Shown here: positions 3 to 24,921 of the stretch, piece by piece
How the letters are laid out: each line of letters opens with the position of its first letter
How positions within the stretch are numbered: the stretch's first letter is position 1
Origin: Microcaldota archaeon
GTDB taxonomy: Archaea; Micrarchaeota; Micrarchaeia; Micrarchaeales; CABMGC01
NCBI GenBank assembly: GCA_021810455.1
Contig: JAJZIU010000004.1
Coordinates: 1-41,771 of the forward strand
Length of the DNA: 41,771 nt
Direction: 5' to 3'
Made by a program: the position numbers and the translations under genes
The notes under the pieces: generated by a model
Databases searched by the model: none
What the model was told of the DNA's origin: nothing
The model's input: only the letters and a program-made list of their open reading frames with translations

Positions 3-1235
3 GAACTGACAAGAGCCTATAAATTCAGAATCTATCCCGATGCCACAAGGCAGGAGGAGATAGATGAACGTCTAATCCTTGCACAACAATTCTATAACAA
101 GATTCTTGAGAAGTCAACCGAGTCCTATAAAAACGGAAAGACAAAGGTTTCTATGGCTCAATTCAACAAGTTCGTGAAGGAAATAATCCATGGCGACAAG
201 AAGTACTTGAAACTATATTCGCAGACAAGATGCGAGATAGAATTCAGGCTTCTGAAGGCATACCAGAACTTCTTCAGAAGAGTAAAGGAGAAGAAACAGG
301 GAAAGAATCATGAAGTCGGATTCCCAAGATTCAGATCAAGAGACAGATACAAATCAATAACTTATCCACAGGACAATGGTTCCTTCTCAATTCATAAAGG
401 AAGACTCAGAGTTTCAAGGATAGGGACTATGCCAATAGAATTGCACAGACCAATAGAAGGCAAAATCAAGACGCTTTCAATCAAGAAGGATGCTGATAAG
501 TATTATGCAATCTTCACAGCGATAACTGACATCAGGATTCCAGAAGTGGAAAATTCAAATCCAGTAGGAATAGATCTGGGACTAAATTCATTCATCGCAC
601 TTTCTGACGGAACAAAGATAGAGAAGCCGAGGTTCATGCAACAAAGGAGAAGGAGGATTGCCATCTGGCAAAAAAGAGTTGCAAGAAGAGATAGGGGTTC
701 AAAGAGACGGGAGAAGGCAAAGGCAGGTCTCCAAAAGACATACGAACACATAACAAACCAATCAGATGACTATCTGCACAAGTTGTCAAAAACACTGGTA
801 ACCTCAGAATACACCTCATTCGCAGTTGAAGACCTTCAAATTCAGAATATGGTAAAGAACCACCGCCTCGCACAGTCAATACAGAACGCTTCATGGAACA
901 GGTTCATCCAACTGCTCTCATACAAGGCTGAAAGTGCTGGTTTGAGAGTAGAAAAAGTGAATGCAAGAAATACCTCAAAGACATGCAGTAATTGTGGCAA
1001 CATCCAAGATATGCCACTTTCTGAAAGGACATATAACTGCCAGAGATGCGGAATGTCAAAGGACAGGGACATAAACGCATCAATAAATATATTGCATATG
1101 GCAACTACCCTCGGACAGAGGGAAAGTCACGCTCAGGGAGAGGATCGCAAATACATTCCAACTGGGAATGCAAACGGACTCGAAGAACTGAGAACTGATA
1201 AAACACATCCTTTGCAGGATGCAGTGATTGCATGA
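3..1235 (+). CDS. tnpB: TnpB (IS200/IS605 family RNA-guided nuclease), 5' end cut by the window edge
   Basis: Frame is open from base 3 (ELTRAYKFRIYPDATRQEEIDERLILAQQFYNKIL...). RuvC motifs GIDLGLNSFIALSDG (D), FAVEDLQ (E) and DRDINASINI (D), plus zinc finger CSNCG...CQRCG. Confidence 0.93.
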   Translation, partial: ELTRAYKFRIYPDATRQEEIDERLILAQQFYNKILEKSTESYKNGKTKVSMAQFNKFVKEIIHGDKKYLKLYSQTRCEIEFRLLKAYQNFFRRVKEKKQGKNHEVGFPRFRSRDRYKSITYPQDNGSFSIHKGRLRVSRIGTMPIELHRPIEGKIKTLSIKKDADKYYAIFTAITDIRIPEVENSNPVGIDLGLNSFIALSDGTKIEKPRFMQQRRRRIAIWQKRVARRDRGSKRREKAKAGLQKTYEHITNQSDDYLHKLSKTLVTSEYTSFAVEDLQIQNMVKNHRLAQSIQNASWNRFIQLLSYKAESAGLRVEKVNARNTSKTCSNCGNIQDMPLSERTYNCQRCGMSKDRDINASINILHMATTLGQRESHAQGEDRKYIPTGNANGLEELRTDKTHPLQDAVIA

Positions 1236-1242
1236 ATGCAGA

Positions 1243-1277
1243 GGAAGCCCATACCGTTTACGGGTGGGAGGATGTCA
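1243..1277 (+). repeat. Right-end hairpin of the TnpB element (CCCATACCG-TTTA-CGGGTGGG then GGATGTCAC)
   Basis: Imperfect hairpin with TTTA loop 3' of tnpB; same motif at 13425-13456 and 32991-33030. Confidence 0.7.
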
Positions 1278-1360
1278 CAAACGTACCTGGTTTGGCACTG
1301 CCGACATTCCGGCATCAAAACCATGGGATTGCATCTGCGCTAAAATATTCGTGAAACGGA

Positions 1361-1475
1361 TTCATTCGACTGTTCTCATACAAGGCTGAAAGTTTCTGGT
1401 TTGAGAATAAAAAAGCTGATGCAGGAAACGCCTTGAAGACGTGCAGCGATTGCGGCAGTGTCCAGGTTTTGGAAA
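1361..1475 (+). pseudogene. Degraded tnpB fragment (RuvC/zinc-finger region)
   Basis: DNA similar to 900-1015 inside the adjacent tnpB (ctctcatacaaggctgaaagt..tggtttgaga..), no intact frame. Confidence 0.75.
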
Positions 1476-1525
1476 CATTCAAATATTTTGACAAATATAT
1501 CTATTTAATACAAAAAGTGTAATAA

Positions 1526-2254
1526 ATGAACAAATTTATCAAAATAGAAAACCTGCCGTTGATTTTCAGATTTGGTGAATTGCTAGATGTCAGCCGTGGA
1601 ACTCTGAGCAGGCGCATGCTCAGCTACGGCATAAGAAAACTTCTCGCAGAAAAGAAACTTTTTAGAGTATCAAAAGGCACTTACTCCAAGACTGCAAACG
1701 TATTCTACATTGCACAGTACATCTACAAGGGGTACATAGGATTATCCTCAGCTCTTTATCTGTACGGATTGAAAACCGAAGTCGAATCGAGTGTGTACGT
1801 ATGCACTTCTCATCCTATGAAAAGCATAAGGGTTTTAGACAAAATACTGATTCCGGTTAACGTATCGGACATGCAGTTCGGCACAGCTTTCGCCACTGTT
1901 GAAGGCGAGGAAGTCCTCCTGTCTTCTTATGCAAAAACAGTTTTTGACATCATCACAAATCCCAAGCATGCTGACTACTTCGATATGTATAGGGCTATCA
2001 ATGCCAAGCCTTTAAGCAAAGAAGACTGGCTCGAGATGCTTTCGTACGCACTCAACACAAAACTTGCCAATGTGAGAAGGGTAGGCTATGTTCTTGAGGG
2101 CTTTGCCCCGGCATGGTTCCTTTCAAGACTGTTGCACATCAGCAACAAAAGCAACGGGATTTCATATTTTTTCAAGCATAAGAGCTTAAATTACAGTTCT
2201 TCATGGAAGATATACGACAGCATCGGCGTGAGGAGATGGGCTAATGCAAGATAA
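1526..2254 (+). CDS. AbiEi-like antitoxin/transcriptional regulator of a type IV TA module
   Basis: N-terminal wHTH-like region (SRGTLSRRMLSYGIRKLLAEKKLFRVSKGTYSK), then AbiEi-like core; overlaps the nucleotidyltransferase gene by 11 bp. Confidence 0.7.
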   Translation: MNKFIKIENLPLIFRFGELLDVSRGTLSRRMLSYGIRKLLAEKKLFRVSKGTYSKTANVFYIAQYIYKGYIGLSSALYLYGLKTEVESSVYVCTSHPMKSIRVLDKILIPVNVSDMQFGTAFATVEGEEVLLSSYAKTVFDIITNPKHADYFDMYRAINAKPLSKEDWLEMLSYALNTKLANVRRVGYVLEGFAPAWFLSRLLHISNKSNGISYFFKHKSLNYSSSWKIYDSIGVRRWANAR

Positions 2255-2990
2255 CATCGAACTTAATGAAATCGCATTGAAACTGGGCATGGGTGTAGAC
2301 AAGCTCAGAAAGGACATAGGAACTTATCGTGCAATCAGTGAGATATTTCCAATGCTAGAAACTGAAGAGTGCAAGGTCGGCCTGTTCGGCGGCACTGCCA
2401 TGAACAAACTGTACTACGGCAAAATGCAGAGATTGTCTTATGATCTTGACATCTTTTCCTACTCTTATAAAAAGACTGTAAAACTTCTCGATGAACACGC
2501 AGCCGTGCTGAAATACGAGGGTGCTTTTCCAGGCAGGAAGGCACAATCCTCAAGGATGATGTACAAAGGCATCGAGCTTGACATAGTCTCTGTATCAAAC
2601 ACTGCCGAAGAGCCTAAGAAGATGCAAATGACCGACCTGCTTTATTACTACGGGCAGCTGATGCCACCCGTCACGGTTCCATCCTATAGCCTCGAGTACC
2701 TGCTTGCAGACAAAACAATCACAATGGCGAACAGAAATGAACTGAAGGACATTTACGATACGTGGCTCGGGACCAAGTTCCTTAAGGACAAACACGCATA
2801 CCATTCATACCTTGAGAAGATCTCAAAAGGCCTTGGGATAAAAGACGTGCATTCATATCTCGACAGCCAGATGACTATGATGCTTTCCAATCTCGACTAT
2901 TACGGCAAAAAGCATATAGAGGTCGTTTATCAGCCCAGCCCTGTGCTTATGCTTAGAGACATAACTGCATTCTTGAAAACATGGGCTTGA
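2244..2990 (+). CDS. AbiEii-like nucleotidyltransferase toxin
   Basis: GGTAMNKLYY...RLSYDLDIF nucleotidyltransferase motif (GG-TA..., DxD). Confidence 0.85.
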   Translation: MQDNIELNEIALKLGMGVDKLRKDIGTYRAISEIFPMLETEECKVGLFGGTAMNKLYYGKMQRLSYDLDIFSYSYKKTVKLLDEHAAVLKYEGAFPGRKAQSSRMMYKGIELDIVSVSNTAEEPKKMQMTDLLYYYGQLMPPVTVPSYSLEYLLADKTITMANRNELKDIYDTWLGTKFLKDKHAYHSYLEKISKGLGIKDVHSYLDSQMTMMLSNLDYYGKKHIEVVYQPSPVLMLRDITAFLKTWA

Positions 2991-3023
2991 ACCACCCGCC
3001 ATTCATAGAAGGAGTTCTATTTT

Positions 3024-3962
3024 TCACTGAACTGGGCCACCAAACATGCTTCTCCTCTGTTTTGCCTTCTTTATGCTTCCATTAACCATGTCCATGGTTA
3101 TGCCTTCAGGTAGCTTCCCCCCATTCATGGCATCATAAAGCACAAGCTTGTAAACATTCATCAGGGTGTAGCCCAGCATCATCCCATAAGCCATCAGCAT
3201 TACTCCGAGTACGGCAATCACTATTCCAAGAACAACAGATGCAAAGACTGACATTATGCCTATGAATATGACTCCGACACCGGCAAGCACGAACAGGAGG
3301 GAGTACAAATCAGTGTATGCAAGCCCTCCGAAAGTCTTCCCAAAATTGTTTATTATGAACTGGGTGCTACTCTTAAGCGTTGCAACAGGACCCGTTTTCT
3401 TCTCTATTATTACGGGTATTGCGAATGTAGTAGCTATGGATATCGCAATAGATGTTGCCAATCCAAAGATAACCGAGCCTATAAGCCCCAATCTTTGTTC
3501 TATCACCCTTATTATCATCGTGATTATCGATTCGAACAAAGCCCATTCTAATATCTGCACCTTGTACTCATAGGTTTTTGAAAAAGCATCGCCAATGCTC
3601 ATTCTCTTGTTTCCAGAATTTCCCTTAAAAGCTATGAGCATAGCCACAAGTATGTAAGCAGATGTGAAGTAAACTACAACATAATAAACAGGAAGCATGA
3701 TGTAAAACGCGTTAGAGTTCATGTGCGAAAGGAAGAACGTGAGGAATATGGCCACGGTTTCAAGCAGTATCACAATGCCTGACATTATGGGAAATAAAAG
3801 AAGCTTCCTATCGTTGAATACCAGCTTCCTCACAGCAGAACCCATGCGCCATCCCGCCTTGACATTCTCGAACATAAGATTACCCGTTATATCTTGCTTA
3901 TACTGGTTAATATTCGTTTTGGAATGTTTCTTTAGTTTTTTGCTACCGCGCTTTTTTAGCAA
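3024..3962 (-). CDS. Multi-pass membrane protein (DUF6159-like)
   Basis: 312 aa with several hydrophobic segments; a later start at MFENVKAGW (about 3875) is possible. Confidence 0.6.
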   Translation of the reverse strand: MLKKRGSKKLKKHSKTNINQYKQDITGNLMFENVKAGWRMGSAVRKLVFNDRKLLLFPIMSGIVILLETVAIFLTFFLSHMNSNAFYIMLPVYYVVVYFTSAYILVAMLIAFKGNSGNKRMSIGDAFSKTYEYKVQILEWALFESIITMIIRVIEQRLGLIGSVIFGLATSIAISIATTFAIPVIIEKKTGPVATLKSSTQFIINNFGKTFGGLAYTDLYSLLFVLAGVGVIFIGIMSVFASVVLGIVIAVLGVMLMAYGMMLGYTLMNVYKLVLYDAMNGGKLPEGITMDMVNGSIKKAKQRRSMFGGPVQ

Positions 3963-4098
3963 GCTTTAAATATTTTAAATAAGCTTACATACTCAAGGCG
4001 ATACGGAAAAAGAAAATCCTAACCTCTAGATGAAACGAAAATGGATTTCACAATCCTTGGAGAAACACTAATACTCAAATATAAGAGGAGGTGAAAAA

Positions 4099-4281
4099 AT
4101 GGAAAAAACGAACGGACTTCTTGGAAGATATCCATACAGAGGCGCAGCGTCGCAGAGAGCTGTTGACTTTCAGGTGCGCCTGTATGAGATCAGGCAACAG
4201 AACGCAATCAGGGAATTGAAGAGAAGTGAAGTAAAAGAAGAAGCAAAGAGGCTCGGAATTCAGGAAATTCTGAGAAAGTGA
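4099..4281 (+). CDS. Small basic hypothetical protein
   Basis: 60 aa ORF preceded by a strong Shine-Dalgarno (gaggaggtg) about 8 nt before the ATG. Confidence 0.5.
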   Translation: MEKTNGLLGRYPYRGAASQRAVDFQVRLYEIRQQNAIRELKRSEVKEEAKRLGIQEILRK

Positions 4282-4379
4282 AGGGGGATCTGTTTTTCAC
4301 ATGCGCGTAAAGACAAACAATCTGTAACGCGGGAACATGTGACAAAACAGTGGGCGAATTTATTGCACTAATCAAGGAA

Positions 4380-4750
4380 CTATCTAAGTCACATTTACGC
4401 TTCCATGCAGTGATGTAGTCTTCGTATTCTAGCATCATCGACAGTTTTGCAAAGCTCCTTGCTATTCCCTCTAATCCATGGCAATCAATAAATTGATGCC
4501 ATACTGCCTGCCATTTCATGAATGGCTCTGGAAAACGGAATGGTGCGCCTACTTTCCCCACATTCATCTCCTCAAATTCCTTTTCCCAGTTATTCACGAA
4601 TCCAAAATCGAGGTAAATCTCGCCTCTGATTATGTACATCTCATTTGTTTCTGCCTAGTTCCTGCTGTCTTTGCACTTCCTCTTGCCCCATCTACCTCCC
4701 TACATCTGCGTAAATGCCGTATCTAGATTCTGGATGAGCTTGTTATAACG
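4380..4750 (-). pseudogene. Decayed IS5-type transposase N-terminal region
   Basis: Reverse strand reads RYNKLIQNLD...WGKRKCKDSRN(*)...IIRGEIYLDFGFVNNWEKEFEEMNVGKVGAPFRFPEPFMKW, typical of archaeal IS5-like transposase N-termini, with in-frame stops. Confidence 0.6.
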
Positions 4751-4994
4751 TGATTTACCCAATTTACCTTGAAAACGCATTCAGAATCATGTCTTTAGCA
4801 ATCTCTCATCTCCAATTCGTGCAATTTTAGGCGATTTCTCCATTAAATATGGAGATAGAAATCATCATCTGCGCTGATAAAACTCGAAATGGCGGATTTG
4901 GCTAGATCATTTTGTTAGTACGAAGTGGAGAAGTTAAGTTTGTAATTTATAATGAATGTGATAATTTTTTATAATTTTCAACATAGACATTATT

Positions 4995-5019
4995 TTCTTC
5001 CTCCAACCTTGGAGAAGAA
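4995..5019. repeat. Near-perfect hairpin (TTCTTCCTCCAACCTTGGAGAAGAA)
   Basis: CTCCAA-CC-TTGGAG core extended by TTCTT/AAGAA; adjacent to the 3' end of the nrdJ remnant. Confidence 0.5.
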
Positions 5020-5020
5020 A

Positions 5021-5516
5021 CTATTTTACTAAAATCCCTTCGCGGGAACCTTCTCTGTAAACGGTTATCCCTCTGCATCCAGATTCCCAAGCCTGATAAT
5101 ACAAATCAGATATGCGCTTTATATTTATATCTTCTGGCAAATTGATCGTAGAAGATATTGCGCCATCTATGTGTTTTTGAATGATACCTTGCATTTTAAT
5201 CCTAAATTCCGGTTTTATACTTATTTCTTCCAGTAGAAAACATTATTCTGCCACCATGAATAAACTTGAAATCTGTTAGAAGCCATTCAAAATTTCTTTG
5301 CCATTTTTCTTTTTCTATTTCACATTCTGCAATTTTTGTAGAAATCCTTCTCCACATTTCTGAAGGTAATCTGTCTAAAAGCTCTCCATTTCCGTCTTTT
5401 AATGCATATTTTTCGCAAAATACTCTAGCACGAAACTCATTATGATTAAAGAAATCAAGAGTTTCCCTAGGTAAGAAAAGTTTGTTCGTGGGAGATTTTT
5501 GTAAAAGCTTATTCGT
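5021..5516 (-). pseudogene. nrdJ: Remnant of a class II (adenosylcobalamin-dependent) ribonucleotide reductase, N- and C-terminal stubs joined
   Basis: Upstream part reads LFLPRETLDFFNHNEFRARVFCEKYALKDGNGELLDRLPSEMWRRISTKIA...FKFIHGGRIMFSTG; downstream part, in another frame, reads KMQGIIQKHIDGAISSTINLPEDINIKRISDLYYQAWESGCRGITVYREGSREGILVK*. The catalytic middle is absent. Confidence 0.8.
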
Positions 5517-6011
5517 TTAAGTAGTGCAATTACCGCCTTTCCAAAAATTGCCTAAAATCTCTACCATTTCTTTAGTAGGGTTTATTCTGTGGAAATCTTC
5601 TTGTGTAACCCATTTGTAATCATCATGTTCTGTACTAAGATGTATTACTAATGGACTTCTTACTGTAACAGTAAAATTAAATTGTCTAGTTTTTCCACCG
5701 TTTTCAGAAGAATAATCAAATGATCCAACATATCCAATTACATTTTTTACAGATAAACCTGTCTCTTCTTTAATTTCTCTTTTTATGCAGTCTACTAATG
5801 TTTCGCCCTCTTCTATACCTCCTCCGGGAATTTCATATATTCCACCTAGAAAATCATTTTTCTCTCTTCTGAAAAGTAATACTTTTTTGCCTTTCGATAT
5901 AACTGCACCAACACTGAAACGATTTATGCCATCTGATGTCGCTGCCTTTAAAAGCTTCATATAGAAATTTTCTCCGGATACCTGTTCAGTTTTACCATTT
6001 TTTGTTCCCAC
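5517..6011 (-). CDS. NUDIX hydrolase
   Basis: Nudix box GGGIEEGETLVDCIKREIKEETGL. Confidence 0.9.
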   Translation of the reverse strand: MGTKNGKTEQVSGENFYMKLLKAATSDGINRFSVGAVISKGKKVLLFRREKNDFLGGIYEIPGGGIEEGETLVDCIKREIKEETGLSVKNVIGYVGSFDYSSENGGKTRQFNFTVTVRSPLVIHLSTEHDDYKWVTQEDFHRINPTKEMVEILGNFWKGGNCTT

Positions 6012-6204
6012 ATTTACACCAATTAAAGCAGTTCTTGATAGTTATCCACAACCTTTTTGAAAGCTTCGATAGGGACTTGACAAATTAAGAATCTTTCCGT
6101 TCAATAGACTCTGGGGGGTTTTCTCTTCTCTTTTTGTCGTCTGAAAGCAGTGAGTGTGGGGTCTCCTGTTGACGTTGGTCGTCCTTGCCAGGAGATCGAT
6201 ACAA

Positions 6205-6404
6205 TGAACATTGGTGAGATAAAAGATAAAATAGTAGAGGTTTGTGCGGCAGCACGGGTGGTCGTGCAGCACTTTGGGCATACGAAGAAGTTTGCAAAGC
6301 ACGTAGTTGCTCTTGTAATAAAACAGGAGAAGAACTTACGAGATTATCAACTCATAGAGTTCTTAGAAAAAGATCCATTGGAAAGATATTGGGTTATAAA
6401 ATGA
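6205..6404 (+). CDS. Transposase, N-terminal reading frame
   Basis: MNIGEIKDKIVEVCAAARVVVQHFGHTKKFAKHVVALVIKQEKNLRDYQLIEFLEKDPLERYWVIK*, overlapping the downstream frame. Confidence 0.6.
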
Positions 6405-7063
6405 GGATCGATCCGTCGACTTTTTCAAAAGTGCGTGAAAGGGCATATCCTAGAATCTTTCAGGAAATCTATAACTGGATAATTCAGGATAGATTTAAGG
6501 GAAAGCAAATCAAATTGGTTGCGCAGGACAGTTCGGAGATACCTGCCCGCTCAAAATTCGACAAGGATGCTAGATGGGGACACAGAACGCCATCAAAAAG
6601 GGAACAGGAGGATGCAAATGGCAATGCCAACGACATGTTCTTTGGTTACAAATTGCATGCAATTGCAGACGCGGAGAATGAACTTCCAATAGGTTTCTTC
6701 ATCGCTCCTGGAAATAGGCACGATTCCGTGTTCTTTCACGGATTGCTGAATGAAGTCAAAAACAGGTTCAGGATTGCATTCAGCACAAAGTTCCTTGCGG
6801 ATTCAGGATACGATGCCACACACATATACAAAGAACTGCATTATGAGAACATAAAGGCGGTAATTGCGACAAATGGAAGGGGCCATAGGGAGTCTGAAAC
6901 ACCAAAAGATCCAGAATACGGGAAAAGATGGTCAATCGAAAGGATTTTCTCAAGGCTGAAGGGCATGTTTGGTCTTGGAAACAACCGGTTTATTGGAATG
7001 AAAAAGGTGTCAATCCACATCTATTCGTGCCTGATTGCATACCTCATGCCTTATCCGAAGTGA
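6242..7063 (+). CDS. Transposase, DDE catalytic reading frame
   Basis: VAQDSSEIPARSK...FFGYKLHAIADAENELPIGFFIAPGNRHDS...FLADSGYDA...KRWSIERIFSRLKGMFGL, DDE_Tnp_1-like; probably expressed by frameshift from the frame above. Confidence 0.85.
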   Translation: MCGSTGGRAALWAYEEVCKARSCSCNKTGEELTRLSTHRVLRKRSIGKILGYKMRIDPSTFSKVRERAYPRIFQEIYNWIIQDRFKGKQIKLVAQDSSEIPARSKFDKDARWGHRTPSKREQEDANGNANDMFFGYKLHAIADAENELPIGFFIAPGNRHDSVFFHGLLNEVKNRFRIAFSTKFLADSGYDATHIYKELHYENIKAVIATNGRGHRESETPKDPEYGKRWSIERIFSRLKGMFGLGNNRFIGMKKVSIHIYSCLIAYLMPYPK

Positions 7064-7165
7064 TAACCATGGGGATTGACGATGGTGGTTGTATGTAAAT
7101 GTCAAGTCCCTAAAATTAAAATAAAAGGTAGCTTTATATATCTGGTTATAATCACTACTTACCAC

Positions 7166-7241
7166 GGTTTTGGAGGGAAAAGGTCTTTTTACTGTTGGTA
7201 TCCCCACCATATCCCATTGCCTTGACCCTCCAAACCTTTTC
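7166..7241 (+). ncRNA. Candidate structured 5' leader or small RNA
   Basis: GGTTTTGGAGGG (7166-7177) pairs with CCCTCCAAACC (7226-7236); overlapping alternative GAAAAGG/CCTTTTC; TATA-like ctttatatatc about 30 nt upstream. Confidence 0.35.
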
Positions 7242-7271
7242 GCTTAATTATTGACTCAAGAGGATCATCCA

Positions 7272-8471
7272 ATGCTTCAAAGAACAGCTGCCTTTGTCGT
7301 ATTTCTAATGTTTTTTTTGAACGGCATAAATGCAACACAGGGCAATACTGGAATATTCGCTTCATCAAATGTGCTAGACTCGGGACAGTCTGTTATCATC
7401 ACGGCAAACGCGAGTTTGGGATCTGTAGCAGCAACTATCCATTGTTACCAACCTGATTATTACTATTGCAAACTAGATTCGGGTTCGTACACATTCCAAA
7501 CAAGCCATGCGTACAACTCAATGCTCGATTGTGACAGGGGCAGTCTTTACGTGTACACGTGTCTGTACACATATGGGTACGGTGGTTCCAGCAGCTACTC
7601 GTATGAATGGTTTGTTAACGGGAAAAAAGTGAGCACTAACGATACTCTTGTGCTGAATAGAAGTAATACTGTAGTCGGCAAGAATAACATAGCAGTTAAG
7701 ATAAGCTCCCCTACTGGAAAAACCCAGTCGTTCTCCACTGTGGTAAACTCCAATCCATCTCCAAAAACAGCTTTAAATCCGGGCACGGCTTACATAAAAC
7801 AGGGAGAAAGCGTAGCTTTCTCCAACACTTCCGGAGGCGGATCAGGCCCATACAATTATTTCTATTCTGTTGCACCTCTGACTGGTTACACGAGGTATGG
7901 GAACCTATTCACATTTACAAAACCAGGAGATTACATAATAACTCTCAATGTGATAGACGCTCAGGGAGAGTACACGCAATCTGTTGCTTATGTTTATGTA
8001 TCAGCTACTCCCGCTTCGTCATCTCAAAATACAACCTCTTCAAATAACGGATCATCACACGCTCAAAACAACTCTGGCGGAAACACAGGATCGGTTTTCA
8101 ACTACACTTACCCTACTGGAAACGTATCGGAAAACTATGCATTAGCTACGTACAATTCAAGTGTATCTTCATTATGCGTATCATCAAATCCGTACAAATC
8201 CAATACATTGGAATACACTCTCTGCTCAGTGGCAAATACCATAAGGGAATTGATAGTGGTGACTGCACTGTTCATGTTTATATTCGGGGCCATGCTTTAT
8301 GCTGTGTCACACTTTCTTCCTTCGGCAGGAAACCTGAAGGGAAGCTCGCAGGCATGGGCGATAGGCATGATGATCGGAGGCATAATAGGCATAATTCTCA
8401 TAGCAGTAGCACCATTCATAGTTAATACGTTTGCAAATGCAGGAGGACTGAATCCCGTGCCTTGCTGCTAA
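7272..8471 (+). CDS. Secreted PKD-like surface protein with C-terminal two-TM module
   Basis: Signal-like N-terminus (MLQRTAAFVVFLMFFLNG), PKD-like region, Ser/Asn/Thr linker, two C-terminal TM segments, Cys-Cys terminus; SD-like gaggatc upstream of ATG 7272. Confidence 0.75.
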   Translation: MLQRTAAFVVFLMFFLNGINATQGNTGIFASSNVLDSGQSVIITANASLGSVAATIHCYQPDYYYCKLDSGSYTFQTSHAYNSMLDCDRGSLYVYTCLYTYGYGGSSSYSYEWFVNGKKVSTNDTLVLNRSNTVVGKNNIAVKISSPTGKTQSFSTVVNSNPSPKTALNPGTAYIKQGESVAFSNTSGGGSGPYNYFYSVAPLTGYTRYGNLFTFTKPGDYIITLNVIDAQGEYTQSVAYVYVSATPASSSQNTTSSNNGSSHAQNNSGGNTGSVFNYTYPTGNVSENYALATYNSSVSSLCVSSNPYKSNTLEYTLCSVANTIRELIVVTALFMFIFGAMLYAVSHFLPSAGNLKGSSQAWAIGMMIGGIIGIILIAVAPFIVNTFANAGGLNPVPCC

Positions 8472-8480
8472 CGAAAATTA

Positions 8481-9806
8481 TCACTCTGATCTCAAAGCTT
8501 TTATCGGATCTATGGTTGAAGCTTTCCATGCTGGGTACATGCTCGAAAGCACGCTAACCACTATTGATATCAGTATGGCAATTATTATCACTACTGGGCT
8601 TACCTGCGGGCTTATCGATATAGATGAAGAACCAGAAGAAGCAGGATTACTGGTTCTTTGAGGAGATCCTGTCCCTACGGCAACAAACTGCGAGCCCCTA
8701 CCCGCGCTTCCACCACCCGATCCGAATGCACTTTGTCCTGCGCTGGGACTGGCGCTCTGGTGTGAGCTTCCGCCGAGCAGGGCAGGCAAAGCGTACGCGC
8801 CTCCTATTCCAACGCTGACTCCAACTATTCCCCCTATCAATCCTATCAGAACCGCTTCGGAAAGGAAAAGAAGCATCACGTCGTTTCTCCTGAATCCTAT
8901 AGATTTGAGTATTCCTATTTCATGAGTACGCTCATTCACCGATATCATCATTATGCTCAGTATGCTTATCCCTGCAACAAGAAGCGAAATGCCTGCTATC
9001 GCACTCAACAGTATCGCCAGAGAACCCGTAATGGAAGCTACCGTGCTTGCTATTTCCTGAACCGATATTACTCTTGCACTGTTTCCGTATATGTTTGAAA
9101 GCAGCGTGTCCAGTGCTCCTACCGTGCTCGCGTTTGTTGCCTTAACAATTAGCATGCTGTACGAGTATTTGCCCAGCACGCTTTCAGCAACTGACATGGG
9201 CACAAAAACGGAACTGTCTGGAGAAACGAAAGAAGCAGACCCGTACTTGTTTAATATTCCTACCGGTATCAATGTCAGGCTCTTGCTCCCACTCTGGCTA
9301 TGCACTGTCAGGTACATAGGCTGATTCAAGCTAACGGAAGGCGAGGTTTGCGTAGTGGTTGGAAATGCGACATCATAACCTACAAGCGCATATGGAACTG
9401 AAGTATCGTTGTAAACACTTCCGGAGTAAAGATCTACGCTTCCAAGGGTTCCTGCTATGCTGTAGTTGTTAACTCCGTAAACCGTGATAGTTGTCTGTGT
9501 TCCGGCTTCGGAAAGATTAGCACTGAAAGATACAACTGGTGTAACGTTTGCAACATACGGCAATGATTCTATTTCTGCAACGTCAACATCGGTTAATATG
9601 TGGGACCCAAATCCTGCTACGTAAAGCGTGGTTGGCCCTGTTGCTTCCAATGAGTGCGCTATGCTTGCAGATATTCCTGAGACCAGGGAAATGAGGGCAA
9701 CTATTGCAGCTATGCCTATCATTATGCTGAGAACCGTAAGCATGGTTCTGAACTTCCTCTCGGCTATCCCCTTCACTCCAAGAGCGAAAATGTCTCTTAA
9801 CTTCAT
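8481..9806 (-). CDS. ABC transporter permease, MacB/FtsX type
   Basis: RKFRTMLTVLSIMIGIAAIVALISLVSG N-terminus and C-terminal ISILSIMMISVNERTHEIGILKSIGFRRNDVMLLFLSEA...STIDPIKALRSE. Confidence 0.92.
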   Translation of the reverse strand: MKLRDIFALGVKGIAERKFRTMLTVLSIMIGIAAIVALISLVSGISASIAHSLEATGPTTLYVAGFGSHILTDVDVAEIESLPYVANVTPVVSFSANLSEAGTQTTITVYGVNNYSIAGTLGSVDLYSGSVYNDTSVPYALVGYDVAFPTTTQTSPSVSLNQPMYLTVHSQSGSKSLTLIPVGILNKYGSASFVSPDSSVFVPMSVAESVLGKYSYSMLIVKATNASTVGALDTLLSNIYGNSARVISVQEIASTVASITGSLAILLSAIAGISLLVAGISILSIMMISVNERTHEIGILKSIGFRRNDVMLLFLSEAVLIGLIGGIVGVSVGIGGAYALPALLGGSSHQSASPSAGQSAFGSGGGSAGRGSQFVAVGTGSPQRTSNPASSGSSSISISPQVSPVVIIIAILISIVVSVLSSMYPAWKASTIDPIKALRSE

Positions 9807-21212: not shown

Positions 21213-22460
21213 TTATCCAAACATGTTGACCTTGGAAACCTTTCTTGGTTTTGGAAGAAGCAATCCCATCAATGCAGATATTATTGCTACAGCAAGAAGA
21301 ATTTCAAAAATCAATGGCAAATTGGAATAGCTACTTCTTATCACAAGACCTACGATGAGGGGTCCTATCGCCTGCCCGCTCGTGCCCCCCAAATTCCAAA
21401 CCAGCGCATTGCTGCTCGTTGTTGCGCCTCTCGGAACATAATCTGATATCATTGACATGAATATCGGAAATCCACTGAAGTTTACAAATCCGAATAATAA
21501 CAGGGAAGTTAAGGATTCAAAACCTGTAGTTTCTAGATACATAAACATGAAAACTGCCGATATTATTGTACTTGCAACTAGTATCATTCTTTTGTCGTGA
21601 TTCTCAACAAGCTTGCCAAATACAAGCTGTCCAAATATGCCTCCAGAGAACATCAATGTTAATATTGTTCCCAAAGACAAACTCGCGCCAATACCTCTTT
21701 CAAATGATATGTATTCTGGTATCCAGGATATTATCCCAAAAAATGCCAGAGATCTTACGAGGAATATGATCGCAAGAAGAATTATCCCAAAATTTATGGT
21801 CTTACCTTGTACACCTTGTCTCTGTTTCATTTGGCTGTTTGTCTCTTTTATTTTTTCAAAACTCCCATCGGCCTTTCTGAGCCCAAAAAGTATTGTGATG
21901 GAAAACACTATTCCAATGGCTCCGAAAAGTATGATCGCATCAGCATGCGACTGAAACATAAGTGCTATTATAAAGAAAAGCGCAGGATAAAGCGCCCTAC
22001 CGATCCCTCCTGCAGATCCATTAATCCCTAGATATCTTCCAAGCTTGTCCTTTCCGTAGTACTTCTGTAATATGGATGAACCTGTAGGATGGTAAAACGA
22101 TGCACCAAATCCTGTAATTATTGAAGATAACAACATGAAAAATGGAATATAAAAATTGCCCATCGCAATCGAAAACAAAAGCAATCCTAACGAAAGAGCA
22201 AATATACCCATTGACATTCCTTCAGCATGGAGATTTCTTTTGTCTATCAATGAACCCAGGATGTTTGCGCTTATTGCCATTGATGCATAAAACAAAACCA
22301 GCGATGCAGTGATAAGCTCTGTACCAACGTGGTAGTTAACTGCAAGCAAATCTATTATGACAGGTACAAAAAACACAGTGCCATCATTTGCAAAATGGCC
22401 TAGCGAAGTAAATAGTAACGCACTCTTCGCACTATCAACATTCTTGTTTGTCTTTTGCAT
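21213..22460 (-). CDS. MFS transporter
   Basis: About 12 TM segments, SLGHFANDGTVFFVPVI and GSLIDKRN motifs typical of MFS. Confidence 0.88.
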   Translation of the reverse strand: MQKTNKNVDSAKSALLFTSLGHFANDGTVFFVPVIIDLLAVNYHVGTELITASLVLFYASMAISANILGSLIDKRNLHAEGMSMGIFALSLGLLLFSIAMGNFYIPFFMLLSSIITGFGASFYHPTGSSILQKYYGKDKLGRYLGINGSAGGIGRALYPALFFIIALMFQSHADAIILFGAIGIVFSITILFGLRKADGSFEKIKETNSQMKQRQGVQGKTINFGIILLAIIFLVRSLAFFGIISWIPEYISFERGIGASLSLGTILTLMFSGGIFGQLVFGKLVENHDKRMILVASTIISAVFMFMYLETTGFESLTSLLLFGFVNFSGFPIFMSMISDYVPRGATTSSNALVWNLGGTSGQAIGPLIVGLVIRSSYSNLPLIFEILLAVAIISALMGLLLPKPRKVSKVNMFG

Positions 22461-22573: not shown

Positions 22574-22620
22574 GATTGCCGTAGGTCGGATTTGAACCTA
22601 CATTTCAATCTTCAGTCCAA
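22574..22620 (-). repeat. Intronless tRNA-Phe 3'-half copy (possible att-like site)
   Basis: Minus strand GGACTGAAGATTGAAATGTAGGTTCAAATCCGACCTACGGCA aligns with the spliced form of tRNA-Phe at 23213-23317 from anticodon loop to discriminator. Confidence 0.65.
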
Positions 22621-22872
22621 TTCGTTATATATGTTCTTCCTGTGACCTACAGTCCTTATTAGTATCCTCTTTGCAGGTTCATCTATGTTTGCAATAACTC
22701 TATAATCACCAACTCTGAGTTTATACTCTGGGCGGCCCTTCAGCTGCCTGAAGAAATTATGCGGACTCACTGCTGCATTTTCAATTTTCTTAAGAATCCT
22801 TTTGGTCACAGTTTTGTCAAACTTCTCCAATTGAATTACTGCCTCAGAAGAATATCCTACAGTGTAGATCAC
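22612..22872 (-). CDS. RelE/ParE-superfamily toxin
   Basis: SEAVIQLEKFDKTVTKRILKKIENAAVSPHNFFRQLKGRPEYKLRVGDYRVIANIDEPAKRILIRTVGHRKNIY. Confidence 0.9.
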   Translation of the reverse strand: MIYTVGYSSEAVIQLEKFDKTVTKRILKKIENAAVSPHNFFRQLKGRPEYKLRVGDYRVIANIDEPAKRILIRTVGHRKNIYNELD

Positions 22873-22873
22873 A

Positions 22874-23110
22874 TCACAACCCTAACTTTGTACGGACTTC
22901 GGCAGAACTATAAGTGGCACCATGTTTTATGTCAATCATGCTGCGCAAAAGCGAGGCTCTAAACTCTTCAGTGTACTTCCCTTCTTCGTCTCCTTCTGGA
23001 ATCAAACTCATAAGTGCATTTATTATCTCGTCATAAGTGGCTCTCTTATACATTCTCAGTTTGTTAAGCTTCTCTCTGGTGTTTTTTTCCAGTTGGATTG
23101 TTGTATACAT
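22874..23110 (-). CDS. Antitoxin of the RelE-like toxin
   Basis: MYTTIQLEKNTREKLNKLRMYKRATYDEIINALM, RHH/VapB-like N-terminus; directly upstream of the toxin. Confidence 0.85.
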   Translation of the reverse strand: MYTTIQLEKNTREKLNKLRMYKRATYDEIINALMSLIPEGDEEGKYTEEFRASLLRSMIDIKHGATYSSAEVRTKLGL

Positions 23111-23212
23111 ATAATCACTATATGATTAGTGTATAACTAATATATAATATTTTTGTTCTTGATGTCAATATACATGCAAAAACGCCCCGTAGGATGCGAA
23201 TACTGAATAGAT

Positions 23213-23317
23213 TGCCGCAGGTCGGATTTGAACCGACGACATTCCGGTTCCTGATGCTGAAAGAATCAAAAAGATCCATCTTCAGCCGGACGCTCTCCCG
23301 AACTGAGCTACTGCGGC
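23213..23317 (-). tRNA. tRNA-Phe (GAA) with about 31-nt intron at canonical 37/38
   Basis: GCCGCAG acceptor pairs CTGCGGC; D-arm GCTCAGTTCGGGAGAGC; anticodon stem TCCGG/CCGGA; loop CTGAAG^intron^A; T-arm GTCGG-TTCAAAT-CCGAC. BHB: CTGA/TCAG with bulges AG^A and GA^A. Confidence 0.95.
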
Positions 23318-23376: not shown

Positions 23377-24921
23377 ATGCCAGGCTGGAAGGACATAGGA
23401 AACGCTTCTGAATACATAAGGACTGATGGGTTTTCTCCCAGAGAGTATCAATTCAACATAATAAATTCAATAATTGATAATGGCAACACTCTTGTAGTGC
23501 TGCCTACCGGTCTTGGGAAAACTCTTATCGGAGCCGCAATAATAGCAAACGCTCTTTCCAAAGGCAAAAAGGCACTTCTACTGGCTCCGACAAAACCTCT
23601 CGCAGAACAGCACTATTCCACACTATCTTCCATGCTCGTCATTCCCAAAGAAAAAATATTGCTGCTTGTAGGTTCCATATCAAAATCAAAAAGACGGGAA
23701 AATGAACAGCACGCTGATGTTATAATTGCAACTCCTCAAACAGTATCAAACGATCTCAAAGAAGGAAGCCTAACTCTTAACGATTTCGGAGCTGCAATCT
23801 TTGATGAGTGTCACAGAGCAGTTGGAAAGTACGCATACACATACATAGCAAACGAGTGTGCCGTTCTTGACGTTCTAATCGTAGGGTTAACGGCATCGCC
23901 CGGTGGCAAAAAGGAACGCATAAAGGCTTTGGTAGACGCACTCAACATAAAACACATAGAAGCCAGGGTGTCGAGTGATCCTGATGTCAAAAAGTACGTG
24001 ATGCAAAACAATATTCACGTTATTGATGTTGACAAGTCAGAAAGGATAATACAGATATCTAAACTTCTAACTCCTGGAATAGAACACAGCATGACATCAT
24101 TAAAGAAAATGGGTCTGATGAAGTTCAAGAGTTTTGAGAGAATGCCGAAAGGCATGCTCATACAACTTGGAAATGACATAAGCAAAATAGAGGCGCAAAA
24201 CTACAAATTTGCTGCCATATTCAGTTACACAAGGCTGCTAAATCTGATCCACGCCTACGATCTACTTATGACAGAGGGTATATACCCTTTCTCAAAATAT
24301 TTCGATTCTTTGGCTGCGAGGGAAAAGAAAAGCAGAAGTGTCGAAACGCTTTTAGCAGATGCCAACATAGTCAATGCGAGGAAACTTGCTGACGAAGCTC
24401 TAAAACACGGAGAAGAGCATCCGAAGGTCATGGCACTTCTAGATGTAATAAGGCTTTACAAGGACAAGAATGCGATAGTCTTTGCACAATACCGGTCAAC
24501 TGTGAAGATGCTGGTAGAGTACCTGCGTAATAATGGGTTTTCTGCAGAACCATTCGTAGGAAAAAAAGATGGAATAACGCAGGAAATGCAAAAATCAACA
24601 ATAAACAACTTCAGGGAAAAGAAGTTCAACGTTCTTGTAGCTAGTTCGATAGGAGAAGAGGGTCTTGACATACCTAATGTCGATGTTGTTGTTTTCTACG
24701 AACCCATACCAAATGAAATAAGAGACATACAAAGAAGAGGTAGAACGGGACGTTTCAGAACAGGAGAAGTCTACGTACTCATGACAAAAGGCACAAAGGA
24801 TGAAGTTTATCTCTACATATCGAGACAGAGGGAGCGCAAGATGCTCACGCTAATAAAGGACATTAATAAAAAACTTAATTGGCAGAGTAATAATAAACAA
24901 TGGGAGCAGAAAAAGCTCTAG
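23377..24921 (+). CDS. Hef/FANCM-like SF2 helicase (helicase domain only)
   Basis: PREYQFNIINSIIDNGNTLVVLPTGLGKT, FDECHRAVG, GLTASPGG, DIQRRGRTGR; no C-terminal ERCC4-type nuclease domain. Confidence 0.88.
   Translation: MPGWKDIGNASEYIRTDGFSPREYQFNIINSIIDNGNTLVVLPTGLGKTLIGAAIIANALSKGKKALLLAPTKPLAEQHYSTLSSMLVIPKEKILLLVGSISKSKRRENEQHADVIIATPQTVSNDLKEGSLTLNDFGAAIFDECHRAVGKYAYTYIANECAVLDVLIVGLTASPGGKKERIKALVDALNIKHIEARVSSDPDVKKYVMQNNIHVIDVDKSERIIQISKLLTPGIEHSMTSLKKMGLMKFKSFERMPKGMLIQLGNDISKIEAQNYKFAAIFSYTRLLNLIHAYDLLMTEGIYPFSKYFDSLAAREKKSRSVETLLADANIVNARKLADEALKHGEEHPKVMALLDVIRLYKDKNAIVFAQYRSTVKMLVEYLRNNGFSAEPFVGKKDGITQEMQKSTINNFREKKFNVLVASSIGEEGLDIPNVDVVVFYEPIPNEIRDIQRRGRTGRFRTGEVYVLMTKGTKDEVYLYISRQRERKMLTLIKDINKKLNWQSNNKQWEQKKL

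Follow-up and report, generated by a model that had tools for sequence, protein, structure and literature searches.

A toxin-antitoxin pair between tRNA-Phe and a displaced copy of its 3' half in a micrarchaeon: probable relic of a small tRNA-integrated element

The locus and its genes

The window analysed here is a stretch of 41,771 nucleotides from a micrarchaeal genome (G000) of 788 kb that is 85% complete. Near its middle an intact tRNA-Phe gene is followed on its 3' side by a toxin-antitoxin (TA) pair and then by a partial copy of the tRNA itself (Table 1). The interval between the tRNA and the copy holds the two TA genes only. On its other side the tRNA has a divergent helicase gene, which anchors the locus for comparison across the family.

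Table 1. Features of the tRNA-Phe locus in the window, with the cassette arrays of two relatives
Feature	Coordinates	Strand	Basis or remark
tRNA-Phe(GAA), intact	23213-23317	minus	Rfam RF00005, 59 bits
tRNA-Phe 5' exon	23280-23317	minus	alignment with intronless relatives
tRNA-Phe intron, 31 nt, position 37/38	23249-23279	minus	alignment with intronless relatives
tRNA-Phe 3' exon	23213-23248	minus	alignment with intronless relatives
AT-rich block upstream of antitoxin	23111-23150	minus	kept in TA copies elsewhere
Antitoxin, 78 aa, DUF7557	22874-23110	minus	Pfam PF24434, E 2.2e-8
Toxin, 86 aa, ParE/RelE superfamily	22612-22872	minus	Pfam PF05016 (ParE_toxin), E 6e-11
Displaced intronless tRNA-Phe 3'-half copy, anticodon loop to discriminator, with 3 shared flanking bases	22574-22615	minus	BLAST E 9e-5
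MFS transporter gene just beyond distal fragment	21213-22460	minus	not beside tRNA-Phe in relatives examined
Helicase gene, divergent from tRNA-Phe; conserved flank	23377-24921	plus	adjoins tRNA-Phe in most relatives
Cassette arrays	L191 (G049:C21) 372-5579; L193 (G053:C29) 5406-8506; L122 (G053:C49) 2261-4185

An initial annotation made from the sequence alone had placed an intron-bearing tRNA-Phe here, and both the Rfam match and the aligned relatives bear this out. The Leu(GAG) identity called by ARAGORN was ruled out, the aligned relatives being Phe(GAA); the call arose because the intron was placed one base off. By alignment with these relatives the spliced anticodon loop reads CTGAAGA. 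No second tRNA-Phe was found in the genome of the window. Many tRNA-Phe genes of the family have no intron, and well-supported branches of a helicase tree of 49 genomes force at least six changes of state for the 37/38 intron.

The toxin scores 43.2 bits against PF05016, for which the cut-off is 23, and so belongs to the ParE/RelE superfamily. With the NCBIfam RelB/RelE family models there was no match for the toxin, and the RelB/ParD match of the antitoxin (13.6 bits) lies far below the cut-off of 60. Since the Pfam assignments are to ParE_toxin and DUF7557, the earlier description of the pair as RelBE-like holds at the level of the superfamily and not for RelBE proper. The module resembles the type II ParDE and RelBE systems in its toxin superfamily, in the small antitoxin gene upstream and in its compact operon, but differs from them in having a DUF7557 antitoxin. 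Homologues of the antitoxin are present in 11 other genomes. A like AT-rich block precedes the antitoxin at other loci (L064-L068, L070, L121-L123, L170 and L171) and is probably the promoter/operator.

The displaced copy of the tRNA 3' half

The copy proper runs from 22577 to 22615 (39 nt) on the same strand as tRNA-Phe, and three further bases, to 22574, are identical to those that flank the tRNA gene. In the initial annotation the end of the copy, at 22620, was set slightly too far. The stop codon of the toxin (TGA, 22612-22614) falls within the copied anticodon loop, as had been noticed at the outset, and the toxin is one residue longer at its C-terminus than its relatives, which are without the extra last codon.

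When the copy is compared with the spliced tRNA a 3-nt deletion and a few substitutions are seen, in agreement with the first description of it, and the BLAST match within the genome (Table 1) is to the spliced tRNA. Local alignment gives a score of 26 with the spliced tRNA and of 21 with the unspliced gene; the maximum in 500 shuffles was 16, which rules out chance similarity. Leftward extension of the alignment beyond the T-arm is significant for the spliced tRNA (p 0.005) and not for the unspliced gene (p 0.45), so that homology to the unspliced gene in this part is unsupported. The CTGAAGA motif stands in register, for which 0.001 occurrences are expected by chance. The three genomic bases that follow the copy are those that follow the tRNA gene, and CCA is not found there. 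The TA pair is flanked by a 28-nt direct repeat, such that the 3' part of the tRNA is present at both borders in one orientation and one of the borders is an intact tRNA.

It had been proposed that the fragment be aligned with spliced tRNA-Phe, and that a better match to an unrelated tRNA or to random sequence, or the retention of the fragment in sister genomes without the TA genes, would speak against a mobile origin. Spliced tRNA-Phe proved to be the best alignment, and no TA-less relative keeping such a fragment was found. Among the matches listed for the order (164 genomes), none outside G000 is a close second copy adjoining tRNA-Phe; in G003 the contigs break inside it. An empty site for the insertion was not found either, none of the genomes being close enough: in G027, the sole congener, what lies downstream is different, and none of the relatives examined has the MFS gene beside tRNA-Phe.

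The 3' side of tRNA-Phe in relatives

Homologous TA pairs lie 3' of tRNA-Phe, directly or at a short distance, in four other species (G013, G038, G039 and G011), with toxin identities of 66-69%. The five tRNA-Phe copies together with that of G001 form one clade (support 100/99) as against copies at other places, and the helicase tree shows their hosts to be scattered. The branching order of the five copies cannot be read from the TA tree, which is too short for this. The distal fragments of G013 and G011 are only 12-13 nt long. Each of these scores at background level by itself, and they are counted as weak evidence. Taken over the family, fragments anchored at the tRNA-Phe 3' end and scoring at least 11 number six on the same strand downstream (matches within 3.5 kb), none on the opposite strand and none upstream, with about 0.1 expected from shuffles.

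The cargo bounded by such fragments is varied and includes PIN-domain pairs (G036 and G039), a methyltransferase (G039), TrpRS (G059) and a kinase-like gene (G060). The turnover can be followed in genus g23, in which a K+-channel-like gene is the next conserved gene and sister species differ in what lies between it and tRNA-Phe (gene names lacking a Pfam match were read from translations). Here G062 has an HPP-like gene, G059 has TrpRS and a fragment, and G060 has the kinase-like gene, a fragment and a methyltransferase; in G063 a TnpB-like gene lies by tRNA-Phe, where the contig ends. Two further genomes carry remains of tyrosine integrases at the same site. In G012, the sister of the TA-bearing G011, there is no TA pair at tRNA-Phe and a decayed integrase lies directly 3' of the gene (E 2e-8), and in G040 another lies approximately 1 kb 3' of it (E 6e-31). 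The 3' side of tRNA-Phe is a recurrent insertion hotspot across the family, and replicate cases are therefore available for study.

Integrases and an intact analogue

Tyrosine recombinase matches occur in 57 of the 79 family genomes, and at 26 of 30 loci examined (L124-L153) a tRNA gene, of varied identity, is close to the integrase. An intact integrase at tRNA-Phe was not found among the PF00589 matches in the 79 genomes. Candidates that share a contig with tRNA-Phe (in G074, G048 and G029) were set aside, as was the intact integrase of G040, all of them lying beside other tRNAs. At the locus of the window the interval has neither an integrase nor a fragment of one, and no integrase ORF lies just beyond it, which also excludes an SSV-type integrase split by the att at the borders, and Cas1, the mark of casposons, is absent from an interval that contains only TA genes. 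The single PF00589 match of the genome is on another contig. At L156 (G000:C4, 98-1073) of this genome an integrase lies right 3' of tRNA-Glu.

An intact analogue is found in G068, where a 1.77-kb element is inserted in tRNA-Glu (L150, G068:C14, minus strand, about 2396 down to 554). It encodes an integrase and small TA-like genes, one of them weakly RelE-like (E 0.017), and is bounded by exact tRNA copies of at least 45 nt as determined by script and 64 nt as read. T-arm-like GGTTCAAATC motifs lie approximately 25 and 67 nt beyond tRNA-Glu both in this element and in G000. Similar motifs occur beside tRNA-Phe in G038 and G004, where they may be what is left of arm sites for an integrase. A search of viral contigs for an attP with the exact 22-nt end of tRNA-Phe found none, and a search of viral contigs for the TA pair returned one weak match of 32 aa only.

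TA copies away from tRNA-Phe

Related TA pairs also occur elsewhere. In G017 the pair is inside an operon. At L170 (626-1250) it lies directly 3' of tRNA-Val(CAC), and a distal fragment was not seen. In G001 (L068) it stands between 73-nt direct repeats that are not of tRNA origin (5974-6044 and 6722-6794), and in G094 (L171) apparently between non-tRNA direct repeats of approximately 45 nt, read by eye; further close copies of these repeats were not found in the two genomes.

In G049 and G053 the pair is one unit of arrays (Table 1) whose units are AbiE-like, AAA/DUF4143 and ParE TA. The units are separated by copies of approximately 60 nt that correspond to the end of a pilin-like gene on its 3' side and include its stop codon (PPNGVMPGFSFGSVSVA-stop), and the order of the units differs between the two genomes, which suggests a cassette-like mobility to gene 3' ends. 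Integron cassette arrays are built by the IntI integrase at attC sites. The arrays of G049 and G053 are like them in that small TA or defence cassettes are split by a repeated short sequence and vary in order, and unlike them in that the repeat belongs to the coding part of a pilin-like gene, at its 3' end; IntI was not identified in them.

Origin of the locus

The anatomy of the locus, its direct repeat, the distribution of the TA pair in the family and the remains of integrases that relatives carry at this site are matters of observation. The most satisfactory reading of them is that the interval from 22574 to 23212 is what remains of a small element after its site-specific integration into the 3' half of tRNA-Phe, and this we regard as probable. 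The initial annotation had likewise seen in it a minimal remnant of a tRNA-targeted element, a view strengthened by the clade of TA pairs at the same site, by the decayed integrases and by the intact analogue in G068. Recombination would have restored a complete tRNA at one border of the element and displaced the earlier 3' half to the opposite border, the TA pair lying between. The recombinase would very probably have been a tyrosine integrase directed at tRNA genes, a type common in the family, which was then lost or acted from elsewhere, and the TA pair would persist as selfish or defensive cargo. The locus is accordingly classed as a relic that arose in the manner of a tRNA-integrated element and not as a complete member of that group, the integrase being absent.

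A separate matter is which partner carried the intron. It had been suggested that the element bore an intronless att. In a classical integration, however, the distal fragment is the original 3' half of the host, and therefore the host tRNA may have been the intronless one; both arrangements are possible. Of the other introns it is that of G013, the only other genome with both a tRNA-Phe TA pair and an intron, that matches the intron of G000 best (score 10.5, the next being 4.5; pairwise p 0.00075). The match is reciprocal, for a sequence of just 31 nt and in two cases only, and it suggests that the intron may have come on the att of the element. That the att of the element carried the intron, the 3' half of the host being intronless, and that integration thereby gave tRNA-Phe its intron is a proposal to which we give somewhat less than an even chance; turnover of the intron is high in the family, so that the pairing of an intron-bearing gene with an intronless copy could have other histories, a gain of the intron after the integration among them.

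One of these is the same integration with an intronless att on the element and a crossover 3' of the intron, whereby the host would have had the intron all along and the element would be the source of the left part of the copy. It is known that an archaeal att may comprise no more than a tRNA 3' end (PMC8371274), and the congener G027 also has a 37/38 intron; that intron is, however, unlike the one of G000, whose best match is in the other genome with both TA pair and intron, and we consider this arrangement rather doubtful.

A different kind of mobility would be that of integrase-less, integron-like cassettes ending in a gene 3' end and inserted either by a trans-acting recombinase or through homologous recombination of the short repeats. 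The varied integrase-less cargo bounded by tRNA-Phe fragments, the arrays with copies of the pilin-like 3' end and the flanking direct repeats in G001 are all consistent with such a process. Neither a recombinase nor a circular intermediate has been identified for it, though, and ordinary elements that lost their integrase account for the tRNA-Phe cases just as well, so that we think it unlikely here. Bolder still is the suggestion that Micrarchaeota move integrase-less cassettes of one or two genes, many of them of TA or defence type, and that these enter tRNA-Phe, tRNA-Val and the pilin-like gene at the 3' end, each with its own copy of that end of its target. Since each cassette brings such a copy, arrays would grow as in integrons, and the tRNA-Phe cassette would also have delivered the intron that converted the tRNA gene. 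As a whole this must be called speculative.

Ordinary duplication, in which a second tRNA-Phe or a segmental duplication decayed to a 3' half and the TA pair landed between the two by chance, is very improbable: tandem duplications of tRNA genes occur in principle, but the copy begins at the anticodon loop and nothing of a 5' half can be recognised, the same TA clade is found at tRNA-Phe in the four other species and other cargo is accompanied by like fragments. Retro-like insertion of a processed (spliced) tRNA fragment, raised initially as an alternative, would account for a copy without the intron, but it finds no positive evidence and is scarcely credible given that there is no reverse transcriptase in the interval, that the copy is followed by the genomic bases and not by CCA, and that intronless tRNA-Phe genes abound in the family.

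Comparison with known elements and significance

For archaeal elements with tyrosine integrases both loss of the integrase after integration and tandem integration are documented, and the att can span from the anticodon loop to the 3' end of the tRNA (PMC8371274). The locus shares with the SSV-type and pNOB8-type elements (PMC8371274) a whole tRNA on one side and a copy of its 3' half on the same strand on the other, and differs from them in that a TA pair of 0.6 kb is all that lies between, with no integrase or fragment of one. The host is moreover a micrarchaeon, and the term DPANN does not occur in that review. Cryptic integrated elements of Thaumarchaeota are similarly tRNA-targeted, lack signature genes and also use intron-bearing tRNAs (PMC6563490), but at 2.6-98 kb they are larger than the 0.6-kb relic.

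The closest parallel for the intron is the work of Sugahara et al. (2012; PMC3293823), a model also cited in PMC8371274, in which gain of a tRNA intron in Caldiarchaeum is explained by the meeting of an intron-bearing attP and an intronless attB. In both cases an intron-bearing tRNA lies beside a tRNA fragment, which in the window is an intronless displaced copy at the other border. The Caldiarchaeum case involves a 5' fragment, a 1.8-kb insert with a recombinase, an intron at 24/25 and variants in the population, whereas the locus described here has a 3' half, an intron at 37/38 and TA cargo. The kind of element is thus known; what is new is the integrase-less TA-only form of 0.6 kb, its recurrence at one tRNA and the pairing of an intron-bearing gene with an intronless copy.

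The locus shows that a mobile element at a tRNA gene can be reduced, in a lineage of small genomes, to no more than a TA pair and a 39-nt scar. How archaeal tRNAs gain their introns is an old question, for which a natural case was put forward in 2012, and an intron-bearing tRNA with an intronless scar next to it is a fossil by which such gain can be tested.
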